Below are positions 4,803-51,308 of a stretch of DNA of 64,000 bases, in pieces. The stretch lies in the NCBI RefSeq assembly GCF_002117005.1, contig NZ_CP021023.1:2046001-2110000 (forward strand), written 5' to 3'. The number at the start of each line of letters is the position of its first letter. Positions within the stretch are counted from its first letter, which is position 1. The notes under the pieces were generated by a model. That model was given only the letters and a program-made list of their open reading frames with translations, ran no database searches and was not told where the DNA came from. The DNA is from Sedimentisphaera salicampi. GTDB taxonomy: Bacteria > Planctomycetota > Phycisphaerae > Sedimentisphaerales > Sedimentisphaeraceae. The position numbers and the translations under genes are program-made.

Positions 4803-4823
4803 TATATTACTTTGTTTGAAATT

Positions 4824-5891: not shown

Positions 5892-5934
5892 GGCTATCCC
5901 CTTTGTTCGAAATTTAAAGAATAGAACAGTTCAT

Positions 5935-5962
5935 ATGATAATATTAAAAAATAAAAAGTCAA
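5935..5962 (-). promoter_or_regulatory. Sigma-70-type promoter for the ATPase/DUF4435 pair
   Basis: On the minus strand TTGACT (5957-5962) and TATCAT (5935-5940) are separated by 16 bp, about 45 bp upstream of the TTG start at 5891. The match is good, but the surrounding sequence is AT-rich, which raises the chance of coincidence. Confidence 0.5.
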
Positions 5963-6106
5963 TATTAGCCCATATTTAATTTTGCTATTTTAGGTTTTTA
6001 TGTGCGCAACTATATTTTTGGGCAAAGCTTTTAAAGCTGATTATTCACTGATGATTTTGCCACGAGCCACGAATCAATAAATGGGTAACTGTCCCTATTA
6101 AAATCC

Positions 6107-6140
6107 CATCCTGTAAATCTTGTTAATCCTGTCTAATTTC
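6107..6140 (+). repeat. Nine-base-periodic ATCCTGTAA block
   Basis: Three consecutive 9-mers related to ATCCTGTAA (ATCCTGTAA, ATCTTGTTA, ATCCTGTCT). The same block appears at 42463-42493 and 42801-42831 and reverse-complemented at 30464-30494. Confidence 0.7.
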
Positions 6141-6359
6141 CCGCATCCCTCTCCGCCTGCGGGGGAGGGGAGATGTTTTTAGCCGCTAAATTCCGCTGAG
6201 ATTTATAAGCCGCTAAGATGCGCTAAGGGGATATTTTTTGACAGGATTCACAGGATAAATATTTAATAAGGAAAAGGCGGAGAGACGCTCTGCTGAAATA
6301 TAAAGAGTTTTCTCGTATAATAATAGACGGAAAAATGCTGCACAGGGGGTATATGCCGA

Positions 6360-7205
6360 TCAATTAGCCGAAAGGTTTAGAGTTAAATCGCAGTGTTTCT
6401 CTAAAAGCTCTAAATCGGGAAGGAATTTTACGGGCAGATCAATTTTACGTCCTTCAATAGATCTGAAGTATTCAATGAAAGATTTAGCAGTGTATATATC
6501 TAAAGAAGGGCTCAAAACAATCCTATATTTTTGGTCTAAGCTTATCAAATGAGAGTCAAAAGCTGCGTCATAAGTTGCTGAAAAACAAAGCCCGTTTGAT
6601 GGGTTTAAGCGATTTGCTTTATCGCTTGACCAGGGGCTAATGTGGCTCGCCCTTAAAACAGCAGGTATCGGCAAACCAGTAATACAACAACGACTGCGAT
6701 AGTTCTTAAGCACCATTTTCCGGAAATAACGTTGATTTACCCTATTTTTTACAGCTCGCAAGTTTTCTTTGCCTTTTTTAACAACATCACAATCAACTAA
6801 GGCATCATAGTTTTCTATTGGCTGGCTTTCAAGCTGCTCAGCTAAGGCTTTTCCATCATTTTCTTCTTGGGTTGCTCGCATCAATTTCAACTCAAATTTA
6901 TGCTCCACCAAGAAACTTAAGAAGCTTTTAATAGCGGCTGAATAAAAACCACCTTTCCAATAACTCGGGCGAGAATCAAACTTAAATACCCCTTCAATTC
7001 CCAGCTTTTGTTGTTCTAATACGTATTTATAAACATCTGCAACTTCGTCTGCGCTGCTTACTTCCCAAATATTACAGTCTCTGAATTTTGTTTCTGAATG
7101 AGCTAATATATCCTGCAGATAATCCAGAGCCTTAATGTAAGACCCAGCCTTATTGCTGCCCTCAGTATTTGTTTCTTGAATATATTTTATGTATTCTGAA
7201 CGCAT
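6360..7205 (-). CDS. HNH endonuclease (HNH_2 type)
   Basis: The 281-residue protein has an uncharacterised N-terminal half and a C-terminal HNH_2-type nuclease domain at about residues 165-235: YRSRCCITGLPIPAVLRASH, followed by HISPWSSD, the NPSNGLCFSATYDAAFD segment and a final HLISLD strand. Proteins of this type are annotated as restriction-like endonucleases; the target is unknown and no methyltransferase is adjacent. It lies on the same strand as the ATPase/DUF4435 pair, 470 bp upstream of it, in the same AT-richer island, so a defence role is plausible. Start at ATG 7205; a TATAAT-like box lies about 40 bp upstream on the minus strand. Confidence 0.8.
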   Translation of the reverse strand: MRSEYIKYIQETNTEGSNKAGSYIKALDYLQDILAHSETKFRDCNIWEVSSADEVADVYKYVLEQQKLGIEGVFKFDSRPSYWKGGFYSAAIKSFLSFLVEHKFELKLMRATQEENDGKALAEQLESQPIENYDALVDCDVVKKGKENLRAVKNRVNQRYFRKMVLKNYRSRCCITGLPIPAVLRASHISPWSSDKANRLNPSNGLCFSATYDAAFDSHLISLDQKYRIVLSPSLDIYTAKSFIEYFRSIEGRKIDLPVKFLPDLELLEKHCDLTLNLSAN

Positions 7206-7389: not shown

Positions 7390-8385
7390 ATGGATGAATT
7401 CAGGGTAAAGGTAAACAATGGTGAGAAGATAATTCGCTGCCGAGCGGGGGCGAATCTCCGCGAGGTTCTTTTATCTGAGGGCATTGAGCTTGGCGTATGC
7501 GGCGGAAGAGGCGTATGCGGGAAGTGCAGCGTTAAAACAGACGCAAGCGGAGAACTCACCGACGCAGAAAAGAATCAGCAGGCCAAAGGCAGGCTTGAAG
7601 ACGGTCAGCGGCTTGCGTGTCAGGTGGATGTTCAGGGGGATATATCAGTTGAGCTTGAGGGTCATCTCGAAGGCGTTAACACTTTCAAGGCTGTCTGCCG
7701 GGAGATTACCTCCCTCACCTCCGATATCCGGCTATTCCGCTTTGAGGTGGAAGGCGAACCGCTGGACTACCGCCCCGGGCAGTATGTACTGCTCACCGTG
7801 CCTGCTTATGAATGCTCTGAAAGGCCGGTTACAAGAACGTTCTCTATCGCCTCGGACCCTGCGGATAAATCGCAGTTTGAGCTTATAATACGCCAAACCC
7901 CCAACGGGCTCTGCACAAAGTATCTCTTTGAGCACCTGAAGGAGGGGGAAGTGATAGAATTTGAAGGGCCGGAGGGCGATTTCGGGCTAACGCAAAGCAG
8001 CCGGCCTGCTGTGATGATAGCCGGCGGGTCGGGAATGAGCTCAATCCGCAACCTTCTCTTTGAAATGAAAAATGCCGGCGATGAAAGGCCTGCAACATAT
8101 TTCTTCGGGGCTGAAACTGAAGATGATATATATATGCTTGATGAGATGAGGGAATTTGAGAAAACAATCCCAAATTTCAAATTTGTGCCGGTTATTCACC
8201 ACCCCAGCGACAGCTGGCATGGACAGACCGGCCTTGTAACCGATGCCCTGAAGCAAAGATGCAGCAATCTCAGCTCCTGCGAGGCGTTTCTCTGCGGCAG
8301 CCCTGGGATGATAAACGCATCAATCGATGTTCTGAAAAGTCTCGGTGTTAGCGGGCAGAACATCTACTACGATTCCTTCGGCTGA
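7390..8385 (+). CDS. 2Fe-2S ferredoxin/FAD-dependent oxidoreductase, NqrF-like
   Basis: The N-terminal ~90 residues are a plant-type 2Fe-2S ferredoxin domain with the CGGRGVCGKC cluster motif and a later Cys in RLACQ. Then follow a ferredoxin-reductase FAD-binding domain (RPVTRTFSIAS, with the R-x-Y/F-S-type motif) and an NAD-binding domain with AGGSGMSSIRN and a C-terminal FLCGSPGM. This domain order matches NqrF and other NADH:acceptor reductases, but the N-terminal membrane helix of NqrF is absent and no nqrA-E genes are nearby, so it is probably a soluble electron-transfer reductase of unknown partner. ATG 7390 is chosen because GAGGCGG precedes it; an earlier in-frame ATG at 7327 sits on the -10 box. 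The stop at 8385 is close to the next gene's start. Confidence 0.85.
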   Translation: MDEFRVKVNNGEKIIRCRAGANLREVLLSEGIELGVCGGRGVCGKCSVKTDASGELTDAEKNQQAKGRLEDGQRLACQVDVQGDISVELEGHLEGVNTFKAVCREITSLTSDIRLFRFEVEGEPLDYRPGQYVLLTVPAYECSERPVTRTFSIASDPADKSQFELIIRQTPNGLCTKYLFEHLKEGEVIEFEGPEGDFGLTQSSRPAVMIAGGSGMSSIRNLLFEMKNAGDERPATYFFGAETEDDIYMLDEMREFEKTIPNFKFVPVIHHPSDSWHGQTGLVTDALKQRCSNLSSCEAFLCGSPGMINASIDVLKSLGVSGQNIYYDSFG

Positions 8386-8413
8386 CACCAATGCCGGAAA
8401 GGGGCGCGGGCAA

Positions 8414-9352
8414 TTGTGCGATTATAACGAAAAGAACGAAGCTGCTGTGAACGAGTTTATCGAATTCCTACGCTACGAGCGGGGAAGCGCAGAACTTACA
8501 ATCAGCTCCTACCGCAACGATCTGAAAGACTTCAGCAGATTTCTGGGGGAAGAAGACTTCGGCTCTATCTTTGAGGTAAGCCCTGAAATCATTCGTGCCT
8601 ACCTCACCCGCTGCAGCCTTGAAGGGCTCGGCAGGAAATCTGCAGCAAGGCGCGTTTCTTCGCTGAGGGCGTTCTATAAGCATCTCCTGCAGAACGGGAA
8701 GATCAGCGTTAATCCTGTTACAGGGCTTCGAACCCCAAAGCCCGATGGAAAGCTGCCGAATTTTCTCACGGAAAAAGAAATCGACTACCTGCTCAGCGAG
8801 CAGGACTTGAGCACGTGGCTCGGGGCGAGAGACAAGGCGATACTGGAGGTTTTATATGGGGGCGGCCTCAGGATCAGCGAGCTTACCGGCCTTTCAAGGA
8901 GCAGCTTCAGGAGCGGGGGGAGGATTGTGAAGGTGCGGGGGAAGGGCAATCGCGAGAGGCTCTGCCCGCTGGGCGAGAGAGCAGGGAAGGCTGTGGAAGA
9001 TTATCTCAGGCTCGCAGAGAATCACTTCAGAGAGTGCTGCAGAGCCTTTGATGAAGAGGCGGTGTTTTTGAACAGATTCGGCAGACGCCTCAAAGAAGGC
9101 GGGATAAGAAAGATGCTCAAGAAGTATCTGCTGAAGGCCGGACTCAGCAAATCTGCCACCCCTCACACGCTCCGCCACAGCTACGCCACCCATCTGTTAG
9201 ACCACAACGCTGATCTCAGGAGCGTGCAGGAGCTGCTGGGGCATAAATCCATCGCTGCCACTCAGGTTTACACGCACCTAACCACCAAAAGGCTCAAAGA
9301 TGTTTACAAAAAAGCGCACCCGAGAGACTCATTTACCGAACCTGAGCAGTAA
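8414..9352 (+). CDS. Tyrosine recombinase XerC/XerD
   Basis: This is a site-specific tyrosine recombinase of Xer length (about 312 residues) with an N-terminal SAM-like core-binding domain (FIEFLRYERGSAELTISSY) and a catalytic domain with the full set R-K-HxxR-H-Y: GGLRISELTGL, VRGKGNRER, HTLRHSYATHLL, LGHKSIAATQVYTH. Xer proteins resolve chromosome dimers at dif. No flanking att-like repeats or integrase cargo are seen, so a housekeeping role is favoured over an integrase. The start is not certain: TTG at 8414 is preceded by GGAAAGGGG, while the longest frame from ATG 8345 would overlap the reductase gene by 41 bp. Whether it is XerC or XerD cannot be told from this window. Confidence 0.9.
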   Translation: MCDYNEKNEAAVNEFIEFLRYERGSAELTISSYRNDLKDFSRFLGEEDFGSIFEVSPEIIRAYLTRCSLEGLGRKSAARRVSSLRAFYKHLLQNGKISVNPVTGLRTPKPDGKLPNFLTEKEIDYLLSEQDLSTWLGARDKAILEVLYGGGLRISELTGLSRSSFRSGGRIVKVRGKGNRERLCPLGERAGKAVEDYLRLAENHFRECCRAFDEEAVFLNRFGRRLKEGGIRKMLKKYLLKAGLSKSATPHTLRHSYATHLLDHNADLRSVQELLGHKSIAATQVYTHLTTKRLKDVYKKAHPRDSFTEPEQ

Positions 9353-34264: not shown

Positions 34265-34415
34265 TACAAAATTGTAAACGGTTTGGCTCTTGGCAAAATA
34301 GAAAAAATCAAATTTATTAAGCATTCGGGCAACTTTTGCCTTGATGTTAAGCATTTGGTTAATATAATCGGGATTGAGGTCAAAATAAATGTTAATTTTT
34401 CGGAGGAGAGAAAAA

Positions 34416-34805
34416 ATGGATGGAAATCAATTCGATTATCGTCAAGCCCTGCGCGAGGAAGTGGAAGATATGCTCACAGCCGCACGCGGGCTCAAACGCA
34501 AGGACAGAAAGCTCATAGAGCAGTATTTCCTTGAGGGGCAAAGCATCACGAATCTGGCAAAATCAAGGGGCAAATGCCGGCAGACAATCTCGAAACGTAT
34601 TTCCAAGCTGCTCAAAAGGCTCAAAGACTACAACGCCTGCTACCCGCGCAGTACGCTCGGCGGTGCGATAGCAAGGGATTATTTCCTGCGGGGCATGAGC
34701 ATACGGGAGACAGCCAAAGCACGCGGCTGTTCGGAATACAGGGTTAGAAAGCATATCAAGCTCGCAGGAAAGTATAGCAGAAAGAAAGCGGGGGCAGAGC
34801 TGTGA
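34416..34805 (+). CDS. Two-HTH DNA-binding protein, sigma-factor region 4 or small-terminase-like
   Basis: A basic 129-residue protein from ATG 34416, behind GGAGGAGAG; an earlier in-frame ATG at 34389 has no such site. The first half has a sigma-70 region 4-like helix-turn-helix (DRKLIEQYFLEGQSITNLAK, then the RGKCRQTISKRISKLLKRL recognition helix at about residues 45-70); the second half repeats the theme (YFLRGMSIRETAKARGCSEYRVRKHI, residues ~90-115). It may be a regulator of the operon, or a small terminase subunit-like DNA-binding partner for the terminase-like gene downstream. The stop overlaps the GTG start of the next gene. Confidence 0.75.
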   Translation: MDGNQFDYRQALREEVEDMLTAARGLKRKDRKLIEQYFLEGQSITNLAKSRGKCRQTISKRISKLLKRLKDYNACYPRSTLGGAIARDYFLRGMSIRETAKARGCSEYRVRKHIKLAGKYSRKKAGAEL

Positions 34806-35455
34806 AGCGTGAAATGATTCAGATTGATTCGTTTATCCCAAGGAGCTACTGCCTCAGCAGGCGAAGCGAGATAATAATGCGAACCTTCGGGATAAGCGAA
34901 AGCCGCCTGAAAGAGAAGTTTCGCCTGAGGGTTGATTTCAGTTTCTCAGAGGCGGAGATCGTGCTGATTAAAGGTGCGAGCGGGTCGGGGAAGTCAACCC
35001 TGCTTTCAAGCATCAAAAGGGCTCTGCCTGAGCAAAGCTTTGCCGATTTGGATGATCTGCAGTTCAGCAGGAAATGCAGCATTATAGACTGCTTCCCCAC
35101 GTTTACCGACGGAATGAAAAGGCTTGCAGATGCCGGGCTTTCAAGCGCGTGGAATATGATCAAGCCCTTCAGCGCTCTTAGCGTCGGGGAGAAGTTCCGT
35201 TTTCGCCTTGCCCTTGCGATGAGCGGGAAAGAGCAAACGATTATCTGCGATGAGTTCTGCAGCAGCCTCGAGGGCACACAGGCCAAACTGCTCTCGGCGA
35301 GAATCCGCCTCGAAACCCAGCGCACGCGGAAAGCCTTTATCCTATGTACTACGAGGCAGGAGATTGAAAAATTCCTTATTCCTGAGGTTGTGATAACTCT
35401 CAGCAAAACAGGCAGGCCGGAAGTGCAGCGGAGAGGGGGGAAAAATGATTCTTGA
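34802..35455 (+). CDS. ABC-type ATPase, COG2401-like ATPase half
   Basis: A soluble 217-residue single ABC cassette: Walker A GASGSGKST at residues 58-66, signature LSVGEKFR at about 126-133 in place of LSGGQ, and Walker B TIICDEF at 146-152. The usual H-loop His is not evident; the position reads LCTTRQ. No membrane partner is encoded nearby, so it is not a transporter. In COG2401, an ABC-type ATPase is fused to a predicted acetyltransferase; here the GNAT protein is a separate, overlapping gene, which suggests a split form. Start GTG at 34802 overlaps the preceding stop; ATG 34814 is an alternative. The role is not known. Confidence 0.8.
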   Translation: MKREMIQIDSFIPRSYCLSRRSEIIMRTFGISESRLKEKFRLRVDFSFSEAEIVLIKGASGSGKSTLLSSIKRALPEQSFADLDDLQFSRKCSIIDCFPTFTDGMKRLADAGLSSAWNMIKPFSALSVGEKFRFRLALAMSGKEQTIICDEFCSSLEGTQAKLLSARIRLETQRTRKAFILCTTRQEIEKFLIPEVVITLSKTGRPEVQRRGGKNDS

Positions 35456-36167
35456 ACTTCCCGAGCTGATTATCCAGCGCTGCGGTGCAGAGCAATACGA
35501 TGAATTCGAACGCTGGCACTACTGCGCCTCCCGCCCGGGGCTGGTGTGCGAGGCCTTCCTGCTCCGCGGGATTGACGGCGAGAAAGCCGGGATTATCACA
35601 TTCTCATACCCGCCTGCAAACTGCGCAGGGAGGAATGTGGTTTTCGCAAGGCTCTTGAAGCGTTTCCCTCAGGCCGGCGGGCAAAGGCTCAGAGCGGTAA
35701 ACGCTCATTTCCGTATTGTATCGAGGATAGTAATCCTCCCCGAATACCGCGGGCTTGGAATCGGCAGGAAATTTCTCATTAAAACCGTTCAGTTCTGCAG
35801 GGCGGGGTGTGTGGAGGCGCTGAGCGCATCTGGAAGGCTTGGGAATCTGTTTGTCTCAGCGGGCTTCAAGAGGTTCAGGCCTGCCGAGAGCGGGAAAAAG
35901 ATTCGGCTGAAAGGGCTGCTCGCTCAAAACAGGATCCCCCTCGGCCCTGCTTCAAAGGCAGAAAGGCAAAAGAAGCTTGATAAAATTTCTTCGGCAGAAA
36001 GACAGAAGATTCAGAGAGCCGCAGTGAATCTTTTGAAAAGCTACGGCTCACTGCCTAAAAGAGCTGAAGGGCAGATTCTTGAAAAGGCCACGGAGAAGCT
36101 CGAGCTTAAACCCGAATACTGTTTCTTTATCAAAAACCCAAAACTGATGCAGGAGGTGGAAAAATGA
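35445..36167 (+). CDS. GNAT-fold acyltransferase, COG2401-like acetyltransferase half
   Basis: A 240-residue GNAT protein. Visible are an early ERWHYCASRPG segment (residues 22-32), strands LLRGIDGEKAGIITFSYP, and the acetyl-CoA motif A at SRIVILPEYRGLGIGRKFL (R-G-L-G-I-G at 102-107). The HY-x-SRPG and R(I/V)VI-PEYRG-G-G features recall the acetyltransferase half of COG2401. The C-terminal ~90 residues are helical and Lys/Glu-rich, without recognised domain. ATG 35445 has AGAGGGGGG upstream and overlaps the ATPase stop by 11 bp. Substrate unknown: protein, tRNA or DNA bases are all possible, the last because the phage Mu Mom protein has been placed in the GNAT superfamily. Confidence 0.8.
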   Translation: MILELPELIIQRCGAEQYDEFERWHYCASRPGLVCEAFLLRGIDGEKAGIITFSYPPANCAGRNVVFARLLKRFPQAGGQRLRAVNAHFRIVSRIVILPEYRGLGIGRKFLIKTVQFCRAGCVEALSASGRLGNLFVSAGFKRFRPAESGKKIRLKGLLAQNRIPLGPASKAERQKKLDKISSAERQKIQRAAVNLLKSYGSLPKRAEGQILEKATEKLELKPEYCFFIKNPKLMQEVEK

Positions 36168-36618: not shown

Positions 36619-37056
36619 ATGAAAATTGCTATAGCATCAGACCACGCAGGTTTTAAGTACAAGGAAAAAATCAAAGAATACCTCAGCGAAAAGGGCTGGG
36701 ATATCAGAGATTTCGGCACATACACCGAAGCCTCTTGCAGCTATCCGGATTTTATAATCCCTGCTGCCCGAGCTGTTTCAGAGGGTATTTGCGAGAGGGG
36801 CATTGTGCTTGGAGGCAGCGGGAACGGCGAGGCGATAGCAGCCAATAAGATAAGCAAGATTCGCTGCGCGCTGTGCTGGAACAACCGAACCGCAAGGCTC
36901 TCCCGCAGGCATAACAACGCAAATATGCTCGCTTTGGGCGAGAGAATGATCTCAATTGAGGCTGCTTATGAGATCGTGGATATTTGGCTGAACACCGAAT
37001 TTGAGGGCGGAAGACATATAAAACGCATTGACGCGATAGAGGATCTGGGCAGCTGA
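36619..37056 (+). CDS. rpiB: Ribose-5-phosphate isomerase B
   Basis: RpiB interconverts ribose-5-phosphate and ribulose-5-phosphate. The 145 residues begin MKIAIASDHAGFKYKEKI, with the conserved Asp-His pair, and contain CSYPDF, LGGSGNGEAIAANK and the RRHNNANMLALG segment. The GGSGNGE loop is like that of the mycobacterial enzyme, in which a Glu replaces the catalytic Cys of E. coli RpiB. It lies between the ATPase/GNAT operon (80 bp gap) and the terminase-like gene (40 bp gap), all on the same strand; a functional link to them is doubtful. Confidence 0.95.
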   Translation: MKIAIASDHAGFKYKEKIKEYLSEKGWDIRDFGTYTEASCSYPDFIIPAARAVSEGICERGIVLGGSGNGEAIAANKISKIRCALCWNNRTARLSRRHNNANMLALGERMISIEAAYEIVDIWLNTEFEGGRHIKRIDAIEDLGS

Positions 37057-37096: not shown

Positions 37097-38545
37097 ATGC
37101 AAACTCAAAACGAAAATCATTTGAGCTCGGTTCTCTCTGCGCTGAGAACAGAGCCCCCTAAAAACCGCAAACAGCTCAAGGGCTATATCAAAGCATTTCT
37201 CGGGGTGTCTCTGCCGGATAATCGCCTGTCTGGGGCAGCGGCCCCCTTCGACTACCTCTGGTATGCATACTCCACCGAGCTGGAGGGCAGGCCAAACGGT
37301 GATTGCCTTGTATGGGCGAATCGGGGCGGCGGCAAAACGCTCTGCGGGGCTGTGCTCACCGTGCTGGATGCGGTTCTCCGCCCGGGATGCAGCATCAAAA
37401 TCCTCTCCGGCTCGCAGGAACAGGCAAGGCGGATGTATGAATATACTGCACGGTTTATGGAGGAAGGCTTCCACGATATGCTCAGCGGGAAGATCACCAA
37501 AAGCTCGCTAACACTCGAGAATTCCAGCAGTGTCGAGGTGCTCACGCAGTCTTCAAGAAACGTGCGCGGAAGGCATATCCACAAGCTCCGCTGCGATGAA
37601 ATCGAACTTTTCGACCCGGATGTCTATCAGGCCGCCCAGTATATCACAAAATCCGACCAAGGGATCACGGCTGCTATGGAAGCCGCATCCACAATGCACC
37701 AGCCATACGGGATAATGTCTGAGGCAGTGAACACTGCGAACAAATCAGCTCTGCCTGTATTCCGCTGGAATCTTTGGGATGTGATCGAAAAATGCACCGA
37801 CAGAACCTGCTCAAGCTGCCCGCTTCTGGAAGACTGCCGCGGGATCGCCAAAAATGCCCAAGGCTACTACCGCATAGACGACGCCGTCTCGCAGATGCAG
37901 AGGGCAAGCAGAAGCAGCTGGGAGGCAGAGATGCTATGCAAAAAGCCCTCAACAAGCAGGTGCGTTTTCCCGTCGTTCAAGAGGAACGCGAATGTGCGGA
38001 AGATTGATTTCAACGTTTCCAGAAGGCTCTTTCGCTCGATAGATTTCGGCTTCGTGAATCCGTTTGTATGCCTCTGGATAGAGCAGGACAGCGAGGGAAA
38101 CGTGTTTGTGATTCGTGAATACGTGGCAAGGCAGAGAACCGCCGCTGAAAACTGCCGGCAAGTTCGCCGGCTAACCCCCGCTTCTGCGAGCATTGCGGGA
38201 ACATTCTGCGACCCCGCCGGCTCGCAGACATCTCAGATAAGCGGAACAAGCGTGGTTAATGAATTCCGCAAACAGGGAATCAATCTCAGATGGAAGGCGA
38301 GCCGAATCACCCCGGGCCTCGAGGTGATAAGGCAGCATATAAGAAACGCCGCAGGAAAAGCGAGGCTGTTTATAGATCCATCCTGTGTAAACCTGATTGA
38401 GGCGATGGAAAGCTATCATTATCCCGCTAAATGCGCCGGAGATGAACTGCCCGAAAAAGACGGCATCTACGACCATTACATCGACGCTCTTCGCTACTTC
38501 TTCGTGAACATTGAATCAAACGCTGCTCTTTTGGCAAAATATTAA
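37097..38545 (+). CDS. Terminase large subunit-like ATPase/nuclease, orphan
   Basis: A 482-residue protein with the architecture of phage packaging motors. ATPase domain: Walker A NRGGGKT at residues 75-81, Walker B LRCDEIE at about 164-170. Four cysteines follow (C233, C238, C241, C247, spacing C-x4-C-x2-C-x5-C), a probable zinc site. RNase H-like nuclease domain: SIDFGFVNPFVCLWIEQD at about 314-331, GTFCDPAGS, and YDHYIDALRYFF near the end, giving the three acidic positions. GGAGAAGG precedes the ATG. No portal, capsid, tail or lysis genes are nearby, so this is either a remnant of a prophage or GTA, or a domesticated enzyme tied to the ATPase/GNAT module upstream. Confidence 0.85.
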   Translation: MQTQNENHLSSVLSALRTEPPKNRKQLKGYIKAFLGVSLPDNRLSGAAAPFDYLWYAYSTELEGRPNGDCLVWANRGGGKTLCGAVLTVLDAVLRPGCSIKILSGSQEQARRMYEYTARFMEEGFHDMLSGKITKSSLTLENSSSVEVLTQSSRNVRGRHIHKLRCDEIELFDPDVYQAAQYITKSDQGITAAMEAASTMHQPYGIMSEAVNTANKSALPVFRWNLWDVIEKCTDRTCSSCPLLEDCRGIAKNAQGYYRIDDAVSQMQRASRSSWEAEMLCKKPSTSRCVFPSFKRNANVRKIDFNVSRRLFRSIDFGFVNPFVCLWIEQDSEGNVFVIREYVARQRTAAENCRQVRRLTPASASIAGTFCDPAGSQTSQISGTSVVNEFRKQGINLRWKASRITPGLEVIRQHIRNAAGKARLFIDPSCVNLIEAMESYHYPAKCAGDELPEKDGIYDHYIDALRYFFVNIESNAALLAKY

Positions 38546-43004: not shown

Positions 43005-44207
43005 TTAATTCTTATGGTCTATTTCAACTATCACATTCAGCTTCGGATAATTTTTCTCATCCATCAGCCATATCCCATCTTCCTCATTTGCCGCTGAACT
43101 GTCCGCAAAATCCCAGCCGGCATTAGTAAATGTGCTTTGCGTTTTCATCTGAGCTGCCGTTAGTCCAGTTCCGCCGTCGCTTTCCTCCATCCCGCTTGTT
43201 TCCTTATCCCAGAAGCAGTTCGTGATTGTGCCTTCTTGATTTTCCCCGCACAGGCCGCCGAGACCTTCTGAATCATTGCCGCCCGAAACAGAGCCGGTGG
43301 CATAACAGTTCGTGATTGCGCCTTCTTCATTTCCCCCGCACAGACCGCCGAGATATTCAGCCTTATTTCCCGCTTTTACTTTACCGGTGGCATAACAGTT
43401 CGTGATTGCGCCTTCTTCATTTCCACCGAACAGGCCGCCTAAACCTCTTGAATTATCTCCTCCAGAAACATCGCCCGCAGCATAGCAGTTCGTGATTGTG
43501 CCTTTATTCATTCCGCACAGGCCGCCTAAAACAATCGAATTATCTTTTCCAGAAACATCGCCCGCAGCATAGCAGTTCTCGATTGTGCCTTCATTCCATC
43601 CGCACAGGCCGCCGAGATATCTTGAATCATCGCCGCCCGAAACAGAGCCGGTCGCATAGCAGTTCTCGATTGTGCCTTCTAGATTTATTCCGCACAGACC
43701 GCCAAGATAATGGGAATTATCGCCGCCTGAAACAGAGCCCGTGGCATAGCAGTTCGTGATTGTGCCTCTATTCCCTCCGCACAGGCCGCCTACATATTCA
43801 GCATCATCGCAAGCGGTAATCGCAGCATCTTCAACCCCAAGATTTCTAATTTCTCCGCCATCTATTATTCCGCTGAAAAGGCCGAGAAAGTATACTGAAG
43901 AATCGATAGTGAGATTCAAAATCTTATATCCCGCCCCATCAAACGAACCTGAAAATTGCGTACCGTCGAAACCGGTATTGCTGGAATCTGTATCAGGAGC
44001 GATAACAGCGCTGTCGTAGGTTCTGCCGGATAGGTCGATGTTATTCGTCAGAACGTAATGGGCGGAGAGGTCATCATTCACAGCTTCAAGGTGGTCGGGG
44101 GTGGAAATCTGGTATGGGTTATTTGCCGTGCCGTCGCCAGCGGCGAAACCGAATGCAATGCCTGCTGCAGCAAGAGCAGCGATAACCGAAACTCTAAGAA
44201 TACACAT
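43005..44207 (-). CDS. Secreted GLUG-repeat protein, shorter paralogue
   Basis: A 400-residue secreted protein. Signal peptide about residues 1-22 (VSVIAALAAAGIAFGFA). Next a conserved lead segment (NPYQISTPDHLEAVNDDLSAHYVLTNNIDLSG), a GSFDGAGYKILNLTI strand set, then about eight GLUG-type repeats of roughly 25 residues each (GGLCGGN..GTITNCYATGSVSGG). The last ~45 residues (from TFTNAGWDFADSS to EIDHKN) are almost the same as the end of the 2248-residue paralogue, and so are 5' and 3' flanking DNA. GLUG repeats are found in secreted adhesin- and autotransporter-like proteins; a beta-helix surface role is inferred. ATG 44207 follows a GGAGATAAAT sequence. Confidence 0.85.
   Translation of the reverse strand: MCILRVSVIAALAAAGIAFGFAAGDGTANNPYQISTPDHLEAVNDDLSAHYVLTNNIDLSGRTYDSAVIAPDTDSSNTGFDGTQFSGSFDGAGYKILNLTIDSSVYFLGLFSGIIDGGEIRNLGVEDAAITACDDAEYVGGLCGGNRGTITNCYATGSVSGGDNSHYLGGLCGINLEGTIENCYATGSVSGGDDSRYLGGLCGWNEGTIENCYAAGDVSGKDNSIVLGGLCGMNKGTITNCYAAGDVSGGDNSRGLGGLFGGNEEGAITNCYATGKVKAGNKAEYLGGLCGGNEEGAITNCYATGSVSGGNDSEGLGGLCGENQEGTITNCFWDKETSGMEESDGGTGLTAAQMKTQSTFTNAGWDFADSSAANEEDGIWLMDEKNYPKLNVIVEIDHKN
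43200..43800 (-). repeat. GLUG-encoding DNA repeats, shorter gene
   Basis: About eight direct copies of a ~75-bp unit with cores such as CATAGCAGTTCGTGATTGTG and CCGCACAGGCCGCCGAGA, alternating with variable 15-30 bp. They are coding repeats, not a CRISPR array. Confidence 0.8.
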
Positions 44208-44561
44208 ATTTATCTCCAGATAAAAAATTATTAAATTTTAATCTTATCCCAAATAACGCCAGTTACCCTTTCCGGACTGAACTTACCGAATTTGAGGGGA
44301 GAATTCAAGGAAAAAATAAACTTTTAGCCGATTTTTTTGAAAAATTCGTTTTAAACCAGAAGGACGCTGAGATATTTCAGCCGCTAATCTCCGCTGATTT
44401 TTCACTAATGATTTTGCCACGAGCAATCCGCCGCAGGCGGACTGGCTCAGTAAATAGACAGCATTTAATTCTGCAAAGCATTGCAGCATAATGATTTGCA
44501 TTTTGCCCAAAAAAATTGTCGCACACTTTCATTCCCACATATTCAATCATTCATATTATGG
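44208..44561. other. Spacer between GLUG genes with shared flanks and a family-1 repeat
   Basis: The stretch next to the shorter GLUG gene (44208-44340) is nearly identical to 51309-51450 upstream of the longer gene, so the two share a 5' leader. A family-1 repeat copy lies at 44428-44526. The end (44527-44561) matches 42962-43004, the 3' flank of the shorter gene. No separate gene. Confidence 0.7.
44428..44526 (+). repeat. Dispersed intergenic repeat, family 1, copy 3
   Basis: CCGCCGCAGGCGGACTGGCT, then TTCTGCAAAGCATTGCAGCA, TGATTTGCATTTTGCCC and ATTGTCGCACAC in the same order as at 1093-1190. Confidence 0.8.
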
Positions 44562-47500
44562 TTAATTCTTATGGTCTATTTCAACTATTACATTCAGTTT
44601 CGGATAACTTTTCTCATCCATCAGCCATATCCCATCTTCCTCATTTGCCGCTGAACTGTCCGCAAAATCCCAGCCGGCATTCTTGAAAGTGCTCCGCGTC
44701 TTCATCTGGTTTGAAAGCCCTTGCGGAGCATCCCAGTTAGGTTTATTAACAGCGGCTGTCTCGATAGACATTGTTTCAAGCGGAGAAACCTGATGTGTAT
44801 AGCTGAAGCCCTGAGCTTTAGATACGTTGAATTTATATCCAACACCGGGCTCGAGGGTATCGAGAGTTCCGTACCACTGATTTCCGTAGTACTGAGCAAC
44901 CTCACCATTCGGTGCTATAATCTGATCCAAGTCTTGGACATCAAGATGCTGGAAGGCATCCTGCACAGACATGCTCTGCTTCTGGAAGAACGGCAGCCAG
45001 TTCCAGCCCTGATAAAGATTCATAGCTCCATCATGACCTACCTCGCTTCCGGAGACTTCAAACGTACCGCCGTTTGCACTGTAAAGCACATACATTCTTG
45101 TAGGTACAATATTCTGAAGCGTTCCGTACCACTGGCCGTTATAATACTGAGCTGTTTTGCCGTTAGAGGCTGTTATATTATCGAAGTTCTCTACAATCTC
45201 TTCGTAACCTTCCATTACATTGGCAAGGCTCTTGTCTTCAGGCAGAACAGGGAACGAAATCCAGTTATAACCCTGAACTAAGTTGTATGTAAAGCTGTCT
45301 TCAACTTCTTTCATCCAGTTGCTGCTGAACAGGTAGAAATCGCCGTTGTCAACCCACTGATTGCTGTCTATATCGCCGAACTGATCGCCTGCGAACGGCT
45401 CTGCTGCTGTATCGCTGGCCAGTGAGCCTTCAGCGGTGAGGTAGGATTCAAGCAGAATTGCAAGATCCTCAGGGCCTATATAATTATCGCCGTTGAAATC
45501 TGCATCTGCAGGTTCCGGATCCGGCTGGAGAGAATATGCAGCCGTGAGCTCCATATTTTGTGTAACATTCTGCAGCTCGGAAAGTGAGTACCTTGTATCG
45601 CCGTTATACCAGCCTTCAAACCTGTACTGGAAGTCCGGCACGAGCGTAGGAAGCGCTGCCGCCTCGCCTTCATCTACCTGCTGGCTAGCACCAGAGAGTA
45701 TCTTGCCGTATTCACCTGCATAGAAGTTTACTGTGTAAATATCAGGTAGGTCATTATAAACAGCATTTACAGTTAATCCTTCTGTTACGTTATCGAAAGC
45801 TGTGTCCCAGCCAGTGAATATATAGCCCTCATCAGCTTCAACAGTCGGAGCTGTCGCTGAGCCGCCGTAAGCGATTGTCTGCTCGGTGTCGCCTGCGGTT
45901 ATAGTACCGTTAGCACCCGGCATAAAAGTTACGGTATATGTAATCTGCTCATACTGTGCTGCTGTTGTCAGGTCAGACTGTACGTTTGTGAAGTCTGCAT
46001 CCCAGCCGATGATTTCCCAGCCTTCGCTGGCTTCAATTGTCGGCTCAACAGCGTCTTCGCCTTCGTAAACAGTCTGCACTGCATCGCCTGCTGTTATTAT
46101 TCCGTGAGTTCCAGCATCGAATGTTACTGTATATTCTGGAATTTCTGAATATGTGGCTGTTGCAGTTATGTCGCTTGTAACGTTATCAAAAGCTGTATCC
46201 CAGCCGGTATGCTCCCAGCCTCCGTTAGCTTCAACAGTTGGGGCTGTCGCTGAACCGCCGTAAGGAATTTTCTGTACCTCATCACCGGCTGTAATTGTTC
46301 CGTTAGCTCCAGCTGCGAAAGTTACTGTGTAAATCTCTTCGTACTGAGCTGTGACGGTAAGGTTAGACTGCACATCTGTGAAATCTATATCCCAGCCGGT
46401 GAATTCCCAGCCTGCATTTGCAGTAACTGTTGGAGCAACTGCGTCGTCGCCTTCATAAACAGTCTGCACTTCTTCGCCTGCTGTTATGCTGCCATTAGCT
46501 CCCGCATCAAATGTAACTGTGTACTGCGGAATTTCTGAATATGTGGCTGTTACAGTTATGTCGCTTGTAACGTTATCAAAAGCCGTATCCCAGCTGGCAA
46601 ACTCCCAGCCTTCGTTAGCTTCAACAGTTGGGGCTGTCGCTGAACCGCCGTAAGGAATGTTCTGTACCTCATCGCCGGCTGTAATTGTTCCGTTGGCTCC
46701 AGCTGCGAAAGTTACTGTGTAAATCTCTTCTGTATATTCTGCAGTAACTGTAAGGTCGGACTGGACGTTTGTAAAATCTACATCCCAGCCGATGAATTCC
46801 CAGCCTTCGCTGGCTTCAATTGTCGGCTCAACAGCGTCTTCGCCTTCGTAAACAGTCTGCACTGCATCGCCTGCTGTTACGCTTCCGTTGGCTCCCGCAT
46901 CAAATGTAACTGTGTACTGCGGAACTTCTGAGTATGTGGCTGTTACAGTTATGTCGCTTGTAACGTTATCAAAAGCTGTATCCCAGCTGGCAAACTCCCA
47001 GCCTTCGTTAGCTTCAACAGTTGGAGCTGTTGCTGAGCCGCCGTAAGGAATATCCTGTACCTCATCGCCGGCTGTAATTGTTCCGTTAGCTCCGGCTGCG
47101 AAAGTTACTGTGTAAATCTCTTTTGTATATTCTGCGGTAACTGTAAGATTAGACTGCACATCAGTGAAATCTATATCCCATCCTGTGAAATCCCAGCCTG
47201 CATTTGCAGTAACTGTCGGCTCAACAGCATCTTCGCCTTCGTAAACAGTCTGCACTTCATCGCCTGCTGTTATGCTGCCATTAGCTCCCGCATCAAATGT
47301 AACTGTGTACTGCGGAATTTCTGAATATGTGGCTGTTGCAGTTATGTCGCTTGTAACATTATCAAATGCCTTATCCCAGCTGGCAAACTCCCAGCCTTCG
47401 TCTGCTTCAACAGTCGGAGCTGTTGCTGAGCCGCCGTAAGGAATATCCTGTACCTCATCGCCGGCTGTAATTGTTCCGTTAGCTCCAGCTGCGAAAGTTA

Positions 47501-50500
47501 CTGTGTAAATCTCTTTTGTATATTCTGCGGTAACTGTAAGATTAGACTGCACATCAGTGAAATCTATATCCCATCCTGTGAAAACCCAGCCAGCATTTGC
47601 AGTAACTGTCGGCTCAACAGCATCTTCGCCTTCGTAAACAGTCTGCACTTCATCGCCTGAAGAAATCACCCCATTTTCGCCTGCATTGAAAATAACTGTT
47701 AATCTGTGAAACGCCGTAAGCTTTGGGTAATCACTTTCCGGCATAATCCATACATCTTCGCTGCCGTTCGCTTCTTCGCCCGCAAAATCCCAGCCGGAAT
47801 CGGTGAACGTGCTCAGCGTCTGCATCTGAGCTGTCGTAAGCCCCGTTCCGCCGTCGCTGGTACTGATCCCGCTCGCCTCCTTATCCCAGAAGCAGTTCGT
47901 GATTGTGCCTTCAATATTTGCTCCGCACAGGCCGCCGAGAAAATCATCTCCCGAAACAGAGCCGGCCGCGTAGCAGTTCTCGATTGTGCCTCTATTCCCT
48001 CCGCACAGGCCGCCGAGATAATCATACCCCGAGACATCGCCGGTCGCGTAGCAGTTCGTGATTGTGCCGTCACTCCCTCCGCACAGGCCGCCGAGATTGA
48101 TTGAATAATTGCCTCCCGAAACAGAGCCGGCCGCGTAGCAGTTCTCGATTGTGCCTCTACTCCCTCCGCACAGGCCGCCGAGATAATCATACCCCGAAAC
48201 AGAGCCGGCCGCGTAGCAGTTCGTGATTGTGCCGTCACTCCCTCCGCACAGGCCGCCGAGATAATCATACCCCGAAACAGAGCCGGTCGCATAGCAGTTC
48301 TCGATTGTGCCTTCAAGATTCCCTCCGCACAGGCCGCCGAGATACCTTGAATCACCGCCGCCGGTTATATCAGCATTCTCAATTCCGAGGTTGTGAACTT
48401 CTCCATCATCTATTTTGCCAAAAAGGCCGAGATATCGGGGATATTCTTCCGTAACATTTGTAGTATCAACTGTGAGATTCAGAATCTTATACCCCGCCCC
48501 GTCAAATGAGCCGGAAAATGCAGTGCCGCTGAAATCCGAACCGGTGTAATCGGTATCCGGAGCGGAATCGGTGTAATCAGTATCGGGAGCTATAACGGAG
48601 CGGTCGTAAGACCGGCCGGAGAGGTCGATGTCATTCGTCAGAACGTAGTGGGCGGAGAGGTCGTTGTTCACCGCTTCGAGGTGGTCGGGGGTGGAAATCT
48701 GGTATGGGTTGTTTATTGTGCCGCCGCCTTGCTCTTGAACTTGCCATCTTAATTCAGGGTATTCTCCTGCCGTCATAAACCATACCTCATCGCTGCCGTT
48801 CGCTTCTTCGCCGGCAAAATCCCAGCCGGAACCAGTGAACGTGCTCTGCGTCTGCATTTGGGCTGTAGTAAGTCCTGTTCCGCCGTCGCTGGTACTGATA
48901 CCGCTCGCCTCCTTATCCCAAAAGCAGTTCGAGATTGTGCCTTCATAGTTCCTCCCGCACAGGCCGCCGAGATAACCATCTCCCGAAACAGAGCCGGTCG
49001 CATAGCAGTTCCCGATTGTGCCGCCTTCATTCTCTCCACACAGGCCGCCGAGATATCCTGATGTATAGCCTCCCGAAACAGAGCCGGTCGCATAGCAGTT
49101 CGTGATTGTGCCGCTGCTATTCCTTCCGCACAGGCCGCCGAGATAATCATCACCCGAAACAGAGCCGGCCGCATAGCAGTTCGTGATTGTGCCCCTGTTA
49201 TGCCCGCACAGGCCGCCGATATAATCGGCATCATCGCTGCCGGTTATATCGGCATCTTCTATGCCGAGATTGTGAACTTCGCCGTCATCAATTTTTCCAA
49301 AAACTCCGAGCTGGGAATGTAAGCCTATTTCTTCACTCCTAATTTCCAGATTAAATACTTTAAATCCGCTGCCGTCAAAACTGCCGCTGAAGATTGTTAT
49401 CGGGTAATAAATTATGCCCTGCATATCAATATCGTTAGTTAAAACGAAATATTTATCCCAGTCCGGCAAGCGGTTGCTGAGGCAGACCAAATCCTGAGAA
49501 TCAGAGATTTCGAAAGGATTTTCTTGCGTACCTTCACCGCTGTAGGTTCTTGCTGGATAGTCTGTGGTGATAACAGAGCCTCCATCATTTTCCCACGCAA
49601 GGCGGGGATAATCATTACCCTCATCTATTGTCCAGCTCCCATCATTCCAGCCTGCAAATGTCGCGGAAGATTTCATCTGAGCTGTAGTTTTTGGTCTTCC
49701 TCCAGCGCTGGTACTGATCCCGCTTGCCTCTTTATCCCAGAAGGAGTTTTCGATTGTGCCGTAACCATTCACTCCGCACAGGCCGCCGAGATTTCTTGAA
49801 TAATCATCTCCCGAAACAGAGCCGGCCGCATAGCAGTTCGTGATTGTGCCGCCAATATTATATCCGCACAGGCCGCCGGCATCTTCTTTCCCAGATACAG
49901 AACTGATCGCATAGCAGCTCTCTATTGTACCTTCAACATTCACTCCGCACAGGCCGCCAAGAAAATTTGAATAATTGCCTCCCGAAACAGAGCCGGTCGC
50001 ATAGCAGTTCTCGATTGTGCCTTCAAGATTTGCTCCGCACAGGCCGCCGAGAGCTTCTGAATCATCGCCGCCGGTTATATCAGCATTCTCAATTCCGAGA
50101 TTTCGAACTTCCCCGCCATCAATGTTTCCAAAAACTCCGAGCTGGGAATGTAAGCCTATTTCTTCACTGCTAATTTCCAGATTAAATACTTTAAATCCGC
50201 TGCCGTCAAAACTGCCGCTGAAAGTCGTTATAGGATAATAATTTATGCCCTGCATATCAATATCGTTAGTTAAAACGAAATATTTACCCCAGTCCGGCAA
50301 GCGATTGCTGAGGCAGACCAAATCCTGAGAATCAGAGATTTCGAAAGGATTTTCTTGCGTACCTTCACCGCTGTAGGTTCTTGCTGGATAGCCGGTAGCT
50401 ATAATAGAGCCTCCATCATTTTCCCACGCAAGGCGGGGATAATCATTGCCTTCATCTATTGTCCAGCTCCCGTCATTCCAGCCTGCAAATGTTGCGGCAG

Positions 50501-51308
50501 ATTTCATCTGAGCTGTAGTTTTTGGTCTTCCGCCTGCGCTGGTATCCATCCCGCTGATATACTTATCCCAGAAGCAATTCGTGATTGTGCCCTCATTCAG
50601 TCCGCACAGCCCGCTGAGGTCATAAGAACTATTGCCGCCGGAAACAGAGCCGGCCGCGTAGCAGTTCGTTATTATGCCGCCATCATTATATCCGCACAGG
50701 CCGCCGAGGTCATAAGAACTATTGCCGCCCGAAACAGAGCCGGCCGCATAGCAGTTCTCGATTGTGCCTCTATTCCCTCCGCACAGGCCGCCAAGATTGA
50801 TCGAATAATTGCCTCCCGAAACAGAGCCGGTCGCATAGCAGTTCGTTATTGTGCCGTCACTACCTCCGCACAGGCCGCCGAGATATTCTGAATTATTGCT
50901 TCCTGATATTTGAGCATTTTCAATGCCGAGATTCAGCACCTCACCTCCCTCAATTTTTCCGAAAAGGCCGAGATAACAAGGGTAATCTTCTGTTACATTT
51001 GATGTGTCAACGGTTAGATTTAAAAGCTTATAACCCGCTCCATCAAATGTGCCGGAAAAGGGAGTGCCGTTGAAACCAGCATCGCTGTGATCGGTGTCCG
51101 GGGCGATAACGGCGCGGTCGTAGGTTCTGGCCGAGAGGTCGATGTCATTCGTCAGAACGTAGTGGGCGGAGAGGTCGTTGTTCACCGCTTCGAGGTGGTC
51201 GGGGGTGGAAATCTGGTATGGGTTGTTTGTTGTGCCGCCTCCAGAAAAACCGAATGCAATGCCAGCTGCGGCAATAGCAGCGATAACCGAAACTCTAAGG
51301 GTACACAT
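44562..51308 (-). CDS. Giant secreted protein: GLUG modules, bacterial-repeat (InlB-type) domains, dockerin-like motifs
   Basis: A 2248-residue secreted protein. Signal peptide residues 1-21. About residues 22-1190 hold four GLUG modules, two opened by a GTxNNPYQISTPDHLEAVN lead and two by a GTQENPFEISDSQDLVCLSN lead. About 1199-1926 hold eleven InlB-B/Listeria-Bacteroides-type repeats, alternating type A (VTFDAGANGSITAGDEVQTV) and type B (VTFAAGANGTITAGDEVQDI). Then come two dockerin-like calcium motifs (DADFNGDNYIGPEDLAILL; DIDSNQWVDNGDFYLF), two repeats with YNGQWYGTL / YGNQWYGTL, and a last ~45 residues copied from or into the shorter GLUG protein. It is a candidate adhesin or surface scaffold. 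No membrane anchor is evident. Start ATG 51308, with GGAGATAAAT upstream. Confidence 0.85.
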   Translation of the reverse strand: MCTLRVSVIAAIAAAGIAFGFSGGGTTNNPYQISTPDHLEAVNNDLSAHYVLTNDIDLSARTYDRAVIAPDTDHSDAGFNGTPFSGTFDGAGYKLLNLTVDTSNVTEDYPCYLGLFGKIEGGEVLNLGIENAQISGSNNSEYLGGLCGGSDGTITNCYATGSVSGGNYSINLGGLCGGNRGTIENCYAAGSVSGGNSSYDLGGLCGYNDGGIITNCYAAGSVSGGNSSYDLSGLCGLNEGTITNCFWDKYISGMDTSAGGRPKTTAQMKSAATFAGWNDGSWTIDEGNDYPRLAWENDGGSIIATGYPARTYSGEGTQENPFEISDSQDLVCLSNRLPDWGKYFVLTNDIDMQGINYYPITTFSGSFDGSGFKVFNLEISSEEIGLHSQLGVFGNIDGGEVRNLGIENADITGGDDSEALGGLCGANLEGTIENCYATGSVSGGNYSNFLGGLCGVNVEGTIESCYAISSVSGKEDAGGLCGYNIGGTITNCYAAGSVSGDDYSRNLGGLCGVNGYGTIENSFWDKEASGISTSAGGRPKTTAQMKSSATFAGWNDGSWTIDEGNDYPRLAWENDGGSVITTDYPARTYSGEGTQENPFEISDSQDLVCLSNRLPDWDKYFVLTNDIDMQGIIYYPITIFSGSFDGSGFKVFNLEIRSEEIGLHSQLGVFGKIDDGEVHNLGIEDADITGSDDADYIGGLCGHNRGTITNCYAAGSVSGDDYLGGLCGRNSSGTITNCYATGSVSGGYTSGYLGGLCGENEGGTIGNCYATGSVSGDGYLGGLCGRNYEGTISNCFWDKEASGISTSDGGTGLTTAQMQTQSTFTGSGWDFAGEEANGSDEVWFMTAGEYPELRWQVQEQGGGTINNPYQISTPDHLEAVNNDLSAHYVLTNDIDLSGRSYDRSVIAPDTDYTDSAPDTDYTGSDFSGTAFSGSFDGAGYKILNLTVDTTNVTEEYPRYLGLFGKIDDGEVHNLGIENADITGGGDSRYLGGLCGGNLEGTIENCYATGSVSGYDYLGGLCGGSDGTITNCYAAGSVSGYDYLGGLCGGSRGTIENCYAAGSVSGGNYSINLGGLCGGSDGTITNCYATGDVSGYDYLGGLCGGNRGTIENCYAAGSVSGDDFLGGLCGANIEGTITNCFWDKEASGISTSDGGTGLTTAQMQTLSTFTDSGWDFAGEEANGSEDVWIMPESDYPKLTAFHRLTVIFNAGENGVISSGDEVQTVYEGEDAVEPTVTANAGWVFTGWDIDFTDVQSNLTVTAEYTKEIYTVTFAAGANGTITAGDEVQDIPYGGSATAPTVEADEGWEFASWDKAFDNVTSDITATATYSEIPQYTVTFDAGANGSITAGDEVQTVYEGEDAVEPTVTANAGWDFTGWDIDFTDVQSNLTVTAEYTKEIYTVTFAAGANGTITAGDEVQDIPYGGSATAPTVEANEGWEFASWDTAFDNVTSDITVTATYSEVPQYTVTFDAGANGSVTAGDAVQTVYEGEDAVEPTIEASEGWEFIGWDVDFTNVQSDLTVTAEYTEEIYTVTFAAGANGTITAGDEVQNIPYGGSATAPTVEANEGWEFASWDTAFDNVTSDITVTATYSEIPQYTVTFDAGANGSITAGEEVQTVYEGDDAVAPTVTANAGWEFTGWDIDFTDVQSNLTVTAQYEEIYTVTFAAGANGTITAGDEVQKIPYGGSATAPTVEANGGWEHTGWDTAFDNVTSDITATATYSEIPEYTVTFDAGTHGIITAGDAVQTVYEGEDAVEPTIEASEGWEIIGWDADFTNVQSDLTTAAQYEQITYTVTFMPGANGTITAGDTEQTIAYGGSATAPTVEADEGYIFTGWDTAFDNVTEGLTVNAVYNDLPDIYTVNFYAGEYGKILSGASQQVDEGEAAALPTLVPDFQYRFEGWYNGDTRYSLSELQNVTQNMELTAAYSLQPDPEPADADFNGDNYIGPEDLAILLESYLTAEGSLASDTAAEPFAGDQFGDIDSNQWVDNGDFYLFSSNWMKEVEDSFTYNLVQGYNWISFPVLPEDKSLANVMEGYEEIVENFDNITASNGKTAQYYNGQWYGTLQNIVPTRMYVLYSANGGTFEVSGSEVGHDGAMNLYQGWNWLPFFQKQSMSVQDAFQHLDVQDLDQIIAPNGEVAQYYGNQWYGTLDTLEPGVGYKFNVSKAQGFSYTHQVSPLETMSIETAAVNKPNWDAPQGLSNQMKTRSTFKNAGWDFADSSAANEEDGIWLMDEKSYPKLNVIVEIDHKN
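45525..47710 (-). repeat. Tandem coding repeats, period about 393 bp (A/B pairs)
   Basis: The pair of type A plus type B repeats (about 131 residues) recurs; GTTACTGTGTAAATCTCTT occurs near 46320, 46710, 47103 and 47498, a spacing of about 393 bp. The ends are more diverged, as expected from internal expansion. Confidence 0.85.
47880..51060 (-). repeat. GLUG-encoding DNA repeats, giant gene
   Basis: Dozens of ~75-bp units with the cores GTAGCAGTTCGTGATTGTG and CCGCACAGGCCGCCGAGA; the block around 49,300-49,780 repeats around 50,140-50,560 almost exactly. Confidence 0.8.

Follow-up and report, generated by a model that had tools for sequence, protein, structure and literature searches.

The gene for a terminase large subunit (TerL) in the 64,000-nucleotide stretch of the Sedimentisphaera salicampi chromosome analyzed here (the window) probably encodes the motor that packs DNA in an element of the Phycisphaerae resembling a gene transfer agent (GTA), i.e., a domesticated phage that is vertically inherited and whose genes are partly scattered over the chromosome. 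Several features of GTAs are present: TerL, portal, and capsid are phage-derived, they are inherited vertically, they lie at separate loci, and they are under purifying selection; it is this pattern of vertical inheritance, dispersal, and constraint that points to a GTA. We infer, beyond these observations, that the element forms particles, packages and modifies host DNA, and delivers it.

The product of the gene is a real, intact, full-length terminase large subunit of 482 aa, with an ATG start and a good Shine-Dalgarno sequence. It matches Pfam Terminase_6C (E 9e-6) and the PHROG TerL profile (E 3.6e-19), a profile search of solved structures agrees with this identity, and its AlphaFold2 model (mean pLDDT 89.8) has the large terminase of phage D6E as its best Foldseek match (E 1.8e-19). 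The ATPase domain carries Walker A (N75-RGGGKT81), Walker B (D167-E168), and S198-T199; the nuclease domain, of RNase H fold, carries the acidic residues D316, D372, and D463; and a Cys4 site is formed by C233, C238, C241, and C247. The initial annotation, made from the letters of the window, had described both active centers as intact and the Cys4 site as present, and this is confirmed: K80, T81, D167, E168, S198, T199, D316, D372, and D463 do not vary among 62 chromosomal homologs, none of which has lost a catalytic residue, and the four cysteines are conserved in 61 or more of the 62. Catalytic decay of TerL is ruled out by this invariance. The Cys4 site also occurs in 35 of 39 phage TerL relatives and is thus ancestral, not a host innovation.

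TerL had further been described as isolated, which does not hold, as genes for TerS-like, ABC, GNAT, and HTH proteins lie directly upstream (Table 1). The order of the cassette, HTH/antiterminator–ABC ATPase–GNAT–TerS–(rpiB)–TerL with TerL last, is that of phage packaging modules, and its first four genes overlap: ABC with HTH by 4 bp, GNAT with ABC by 11 bp, and TerS with GNAT by 4 bp (ATGA). The HTH protein (Sigma70_r4, E 7.7e-8; Phage_antitermQ, E 3.2e-7) is a probable activator or antiterminator of the element, and its gene likely starts at 34416, after GGAGGAG. The ABC ATPase matches phrog_11143 (E 6.3e-23) and is 32% identical to the ABC protein of phage nickie. The modeled GNAT protein (pLDDT 89.4) has the GNAT fold, with H25, Y26, R63, N86, R94, R102, and E124 invariant; Mom was considered as an identity for it, and since the fold search returned generic GNATs only, no Mom membership is claimed. 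The next product is classed as TerS-like through its family: the window protein alone has no significant family match, including to the HTH family, whereas 15 of 27 family members match the terminase small subunit profile phrog_2538 (best E 1.6e-10) and 6 of 27 match HTH_Tnp_1_2. rpiB, a cellular gene, is interposed between TerS and TerL but does not belong to the element; it is found at the same place in several relatives (L045, L059, L062, L063, and L101).

Table 1. Genes of the packaging cassette, with coordinates in the window.
Product	Coordinates	Strand	Assignment and basis
HTH protein	34389..34805	+	sigma-70 region-4-like HTH and phage antitermination-Q-like HTH
ABC-type ATPase	34802..35455	+	phage "ABC transporter" family of packaging modules; COG2401-like half
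GNAT-fold acyltransferase	35445..36167	+	COG2401/MK0520-like half; phrog_886, E 4e-10
TerS-like protein, 124 aa	36164..36538	+	family-level match to PHROG small terminase
rpiB, ribose-5-phosphate isomerase B	36619..37056	+	LacAB_rpiB, E 1.4e-57
TerL	37097..38545	+	ATPase and RNase H-like nuclease with inserted Cys4 site; Pfam, PHROG, AF2/Foldseek, tree

The cassette recurs across the class in the order HTH-ABC-GNAT-(ParB)-(TerS)-TerL. HTH, ABC, and GNAT genes are each present in 34 of 37 long loci, and 131 of 134 cassette genes lie on the same strand as TerL; TerS was not found in many loci of families f10 and f13 among the 37 compared. ABC and GNAT form one fused protein in some relatives (L029, L071, L091, L098, and the loci of family f46). 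Between GNAT and TerS, many relatives have a ParB-domain gene (ParB_N, E 1.6e-8) that the window cassette does not have. A divergent XRE regulator lies upstream in 19 of the 37 loci, and a representative one (Peptidase_S24, E 2.4e-17; phrog_4, 2.2e-30) resembles phage repressors. The ABC gene (L024:873-1551) and the HTH gene (L013:2028-2474) are each divided into two ORFs in single MAGs, through sequence error or decay.

The statement that structural phage genes are missing is incorrect for the chromosome as a whole: genes for portal, scaffold, major capsid, and connector proteins are found at 2.770–2.775 Mb, outside the window and 688 kb from the TerL cassette. The SPP1-type portal family PF05133 has one match in the genome (2773284–2774507) and is present in 58 of 120 genomes of the class. 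The order of the head locus (L310) is portal (461 aa; SPP1_portal, E 4.3e-17), scaffold-like protein (133 aa), major capsid protein (382 aa; SU10_MCP, E 1.5e-85; phrog_1328, 5.4e-78), and connector-like protein (218 aa), followed by a holin-like protein (87 aa) and a lipoprotein (193 aa); genes of the first four kinds each occur in 16–19 of 19 portal loci. For several portals a "stop" within the frame had been reported; in the case that was checked (L322), this proved to be the terminal stop codon. The HK97-type portal PF04860, the HK97-type capsid PF05065, and the SSU5 portal phrog_145 were not found in the genome, and occur in 5–6, 14, and 1 of 58 genomes of the order, respectively. These negatives, which had suggested a motor without a capsid, arose because the wrong protein families were searched, and the suggestion is overturned by the PF05133 match.

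In the sister species (G060), amtB-glnK separates the cassette from the head cluster about 6 kb upstream of it, and the distance between TerL and capsid is 11 kb. The head cluster of the window genome has been relocated to a distance of 688 kb, and IS110 copies lie near its new site. In a locus of family f15 (L318), ABC, GNAT, TerL, portal, scaffold, major capsid, connector, and tail-like genes follow one another on one strand, uninterrupted by replication genes. Structural phage genes do therefore occur at an orthologous position, contiguous with TerL, and a prophage at that position was what the initial annotation had named as speaking against a cellular role; on the basis of the TerL tree (see below), this contiguity is read as an inherited element and not as a recent prophage. 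Neither the contiguous run of L318 nor the window cassette contains replication or integration genes. A plasmid- or phage-like replication module, comprising a primase/RecA-like replication protein, an HTH replication-initiator-like protein, and a double HTH_17 protein (L311:7785-11008, G000), lies about 8–11 kb from the head cluster of the window genome. One further genome (G104) has, beside the capsid gene of the element, three distant SU10-type capsid genes, which are probably those of prophages of a related type.

The window cassette taken by itself, with TerS, TerL, and regulators and no capsid, has the content of a PICI-like phage satellite that redirects the packaging of a helper. Since the genome itself encodes portal and capsid, the locus has no integrase, and the cassette is vertically inherited, a satellite is extremely improbable. 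The absence of an integrase, noted initially, stands for the locus itself, but a tyrosine recombinase gene (Phage_integrase, E 1.8e-41) lies 28 kb away in the window, at 8345–9352; it is probably a housekeeping XerC/D, and its frame is overlapped by an ARAGORN tRNA-Gly call (8712–8805). Two other regions of the window were noted in passing. Positions 3897–7205 are an AT-rich (30–33% GC) putative defense island that encodes an AAA_15 ATPase resembling PtuA/AriA (E 2e-28), a 301-aa protein with no family, and an HNH_2 nuclease (PADLOC HNH, E 3e-48). Positions 43005–51308 encode two related repeat-rich proteins of 400 and 2248 aa, of the GGLCG...ITNCYATGSVSGG (GLUG-like) type, with near-identical C-terminal tails, a probable recent partial duplication.

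The TerL family is present in 157 of 297 sampled genomes of the class, almost always in single copy, and family profiles detect capsid in 131 and portal in 130. Both TerL and capsid occur in 127 genomes, capsid only in 4, TerL only in 30, and neither in 136 (Fisher p 1.7e-48, a value that ignores the shared ancestry of the genomes); because PF05133 hits, taken independently of TerL, served as seeds of the portal and capsid profiles, the profiles do not themselves produce this co-occurrence. TerL and capsid are at most 100 kb apart in 38 of 47 genomes with both on one contig, and the distance in genomes other than that of the window ranges from 2 kb to 1.1 Mb. Tree distances of TerL and capsid are correlated (r 0.88, Mantel p 0.0001, 32 genomes), and both trees follow the host families. 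The portal or capsid gene is split in G031, G063, G156, G001, and G184, with the pieces 2–68 kb apart or inverted, which indicates that the element is decaying in places. Outside the class, in families f46, f87, and f89 of the same phylum (loci L125–L136, genomes G315–G475), a single homologous capsid gene (E about 1e-140) occurs together with a distant TerL, which is adjoined by a fused ABC-GNAT gene in seven f46 loci; in G409 and G475, too, TerL and capsid lie apart. The system is thus older or wider than the Phycisphaerae, and these families either form another GTA-like group or point to an earlier origin.

This co-occurrence bears on whether TerS-TerL and ABC-GNAT could have been domesticated independently of a capsid, as a translocase/nuclease plus DNA-modification system, e.g., in defense. 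The ABC-GNAT pair is predicted to acyl-modify DNA bases (PMC7824862, citing Iyer et al.), restriction motors have a similar translocase-nuclease architecture, and 30 genomes have TerL with no capsid detected. However, several of these TerL-only genomes have a prophage-type TerL (families f12, f16, and f26) or are fragmented, TerL is present in 127 of the 131 capsid-bearing genomes and has co-evolved with the capsid, and PADLOC gave no defense-family match for TerL, TerS, or GNAT; domestication of this kind is accordingly quite unlikely.

Chromosomal TerLs group into one clade (support 0.89–0.99) of a 118-sequence tree, with phage contigs outside, and the branches of this clade follow the GTDB families f1, f4, f5, f10, f13, f20, f22, and f25; neighboring genes are orthologous within TerL subclades. 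The exceptions, L088, L092, and L093, are nested among viral contigs and are true prophages, so the tree separates prophage from inherited TerLs. Between the window species and its sister, dN/dS is 0.09 for TerL (0.05–0.15 for other close pairs), 0.10–0.16 for the four genes upstream of it, and 0.08–0.11 for the head genes, including portal, major capsid, and connector. That the loci are remnants of repeated infection by related phages would be in keeping with the existence of such phages and with the three prophage-type TerLs, for which a prophage origin is accepted; for the main clade, which follows host families in single copy under purifying selection, with orthologous neighbors and, in the window genome, no HK97-type portal or capsid, the prophage-remnant reading is rejected and repeated infection is very improbable. 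Of the proposal that TerL is selected for a cellular role, one part survives: the gene is kept as a host gene and not as part of a decaying prophage, as judged from dN/dS, invariant residues, and class-wide inheritance. The capsid-free, lone motor that was envisaged does not, since portal and capsid co-occur and co-evolve with TerL.

The phage ancestry of the element is apparent from gene order. In phages SSU5 (Salmonella) and nickie (Pseudomonas), ParB, ABC, a hypothetical protein, GNAT, a second hypothetical protein, a DNA-binding protein, and TerL are followed by portal and capsid; among IMG/VR contigs, L150 has ParB-ABC-TerS-TerL, and L240 and L241 have ParB-ABC-GNAT-TerL-capsid. As part of the GTA reading, the ancestor would have been a phage of the type ParB-ABC-GNAT-TerS-TerL-portal-capsid, domesticated in an ancestor of the class. 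Another IMG/VR "viral" contig, L396 (IMGVR_UViG_3300031673_016560), has portal, scaffold, capsid, connector, and tail genes about 60% identical to the host capsid and may be a misfiled host GTA locus, a warning that "viral" contigs in databases may be loci of this kind.

A tail-like module, whose genes have no database match, lies 3′ of the head genes in f5, f15, f16, f20, f22, and parts of f3 and f4. A profile of one of its genes, A10, built from only four sequences of a protein class that diverges fast, found no match in the window genome, its sister (G060), G018, or G008, or among the genomes listed for f10 or f13. In these genomes and families, either the tail lies elsewhere and goes unrecognized or the particles are tailless, which makes the tail the weak point of the GTA reading. 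For the window lineage, head and motor genes and a holin-like gene were detected, and no tail module; among lysis genes, only the small holin-like protein was found. There is a modest chance that the element has lost its tail in whole families, including that of the window, and that motor, portal, and shell are selected together with the predicted base-modifying ABC-GNAT pair as a cell-owned DNA-packing compartment, or as a GTA that labels its packaged DNA, and not as an ordinary tailed GTA. Somewhat less likely still is, in the window lineage, f10, and f13, a tailless DNA-packaging capsid with a role other than transfer, which would sequester, dispose of, or archive DNA inside the cell that makes it, or be released on lysis for use by naturally competent neighbors. 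The missing A10 in the genomes and families named above, purifying selection on capsid, portal, and TerL between the window species and its sister, and the holin-like and lipoprotein genes directly after the head genes are consistent with such a capsid; the fast divergence of tail proteins and the small A10 profile leave room for an unrecognized or relocated tail locus. To our knowledge, such a capsid has no precedent.

As a GTA-like element, the system would work as follows. The HTH/Q-like protein would switch the element on; in several other families, a divergent XRE-S24 protein, a putative CI/LexA-like repressor, adjoins the HTH gene. Portal, scaffold, and SU10-type capsid protein would assemble a prohead, and TerS and TerL, a predicted headful-type terminase, would cleave the DNA of the cell and translocate it through the portal. 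Acylation of DNA bases, before packaging or while it proceeds, is the probable task of ABC and GNAT, together with ParB in relatives that have it. Where a lineage has a tail module, its particles would finally deliver the DNA to other cells.

GTAs are proven in few lineages only, and their prevalence outside the Alphaproteobacteria is an open question (PMC11841831). The 5.39 million open papers searched yielded no GTA report for Planctomycetes, Planctomycetota, or Phycisphaerae, the co-mentions that were opened being incidental, and a genomic survey of the class does not mention phage, terminase, or capsid. If the present reading is right, a GTA-like system derived from an unrelated phage exists in about half of the sampled genomes of the class, and GTA domestication would be a recurrent bacterial strategy; the ABC-GNAT pair, with its predicted chemistry, would also gain a home in which its function can be tested. 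The class has cultured isolates, e.g., Sedimentisphaera, Phycisphaera, and Anaerohalosphaera (PMC11266412), so that this reading is open to experiment.

Like the GTAs of Rhodobacter and Caulobacter (RcGTA and CcGTA), the element has phage-derived head and packaging genes that are inherited vertically across a class, are under purifying selection, and occupy several loci up to hundreds of kb apart, with no replication genes in the gene runs examined here. These GTAs have a dedicated activator, and that of CcGTA, GafZ, contains an HTH of sigma-like type and functions in antitermination (PMC11150451); the predicted role of the HTH protein of the window cassette fits this parallel. The element differs from them in its unrelated ancestor, with an SU10-type capsid and an SPP1-type portal and not the HK97-type families searched; in its ABC-GNAT(-ParB) genes, a TerS that only in part has an HTH, and lineages with no detectable tail; and in its host, Planctomycetota and not Alphaproteobacteria; its particles are putative. 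With SSU5/nickie-type phages and phage-plasmids it shares the arrangement ParB-ABC-GNAT-(DNA-binding protein)-TerL, with ABC, GNAT, and TerL homologous in sequence, whereas those are full phages with their own replication and with portal (phrog_145) and capsid (phrog_212) of other families. COG2401-type ABC-GNAT proteins (MK0520), for which DNA-base acylation is a prediction in the literature (PMC7824862, citing Iyer et al.), likewise have the ABC ATPase and GNAT as neighbors or as one fused protein; here, the pair is fixed beside a terminase in bacterial chromosomes. The large terminase of phage D6E (PDB 5OEA) has the same ATPase and RNase H nuclease fold as the window TerL over about 445 columns (TM 0.60–0.64), with 14% identity, and the window TerL differs from it by the Cys4 site inserted in the linker, at residues 233–247.
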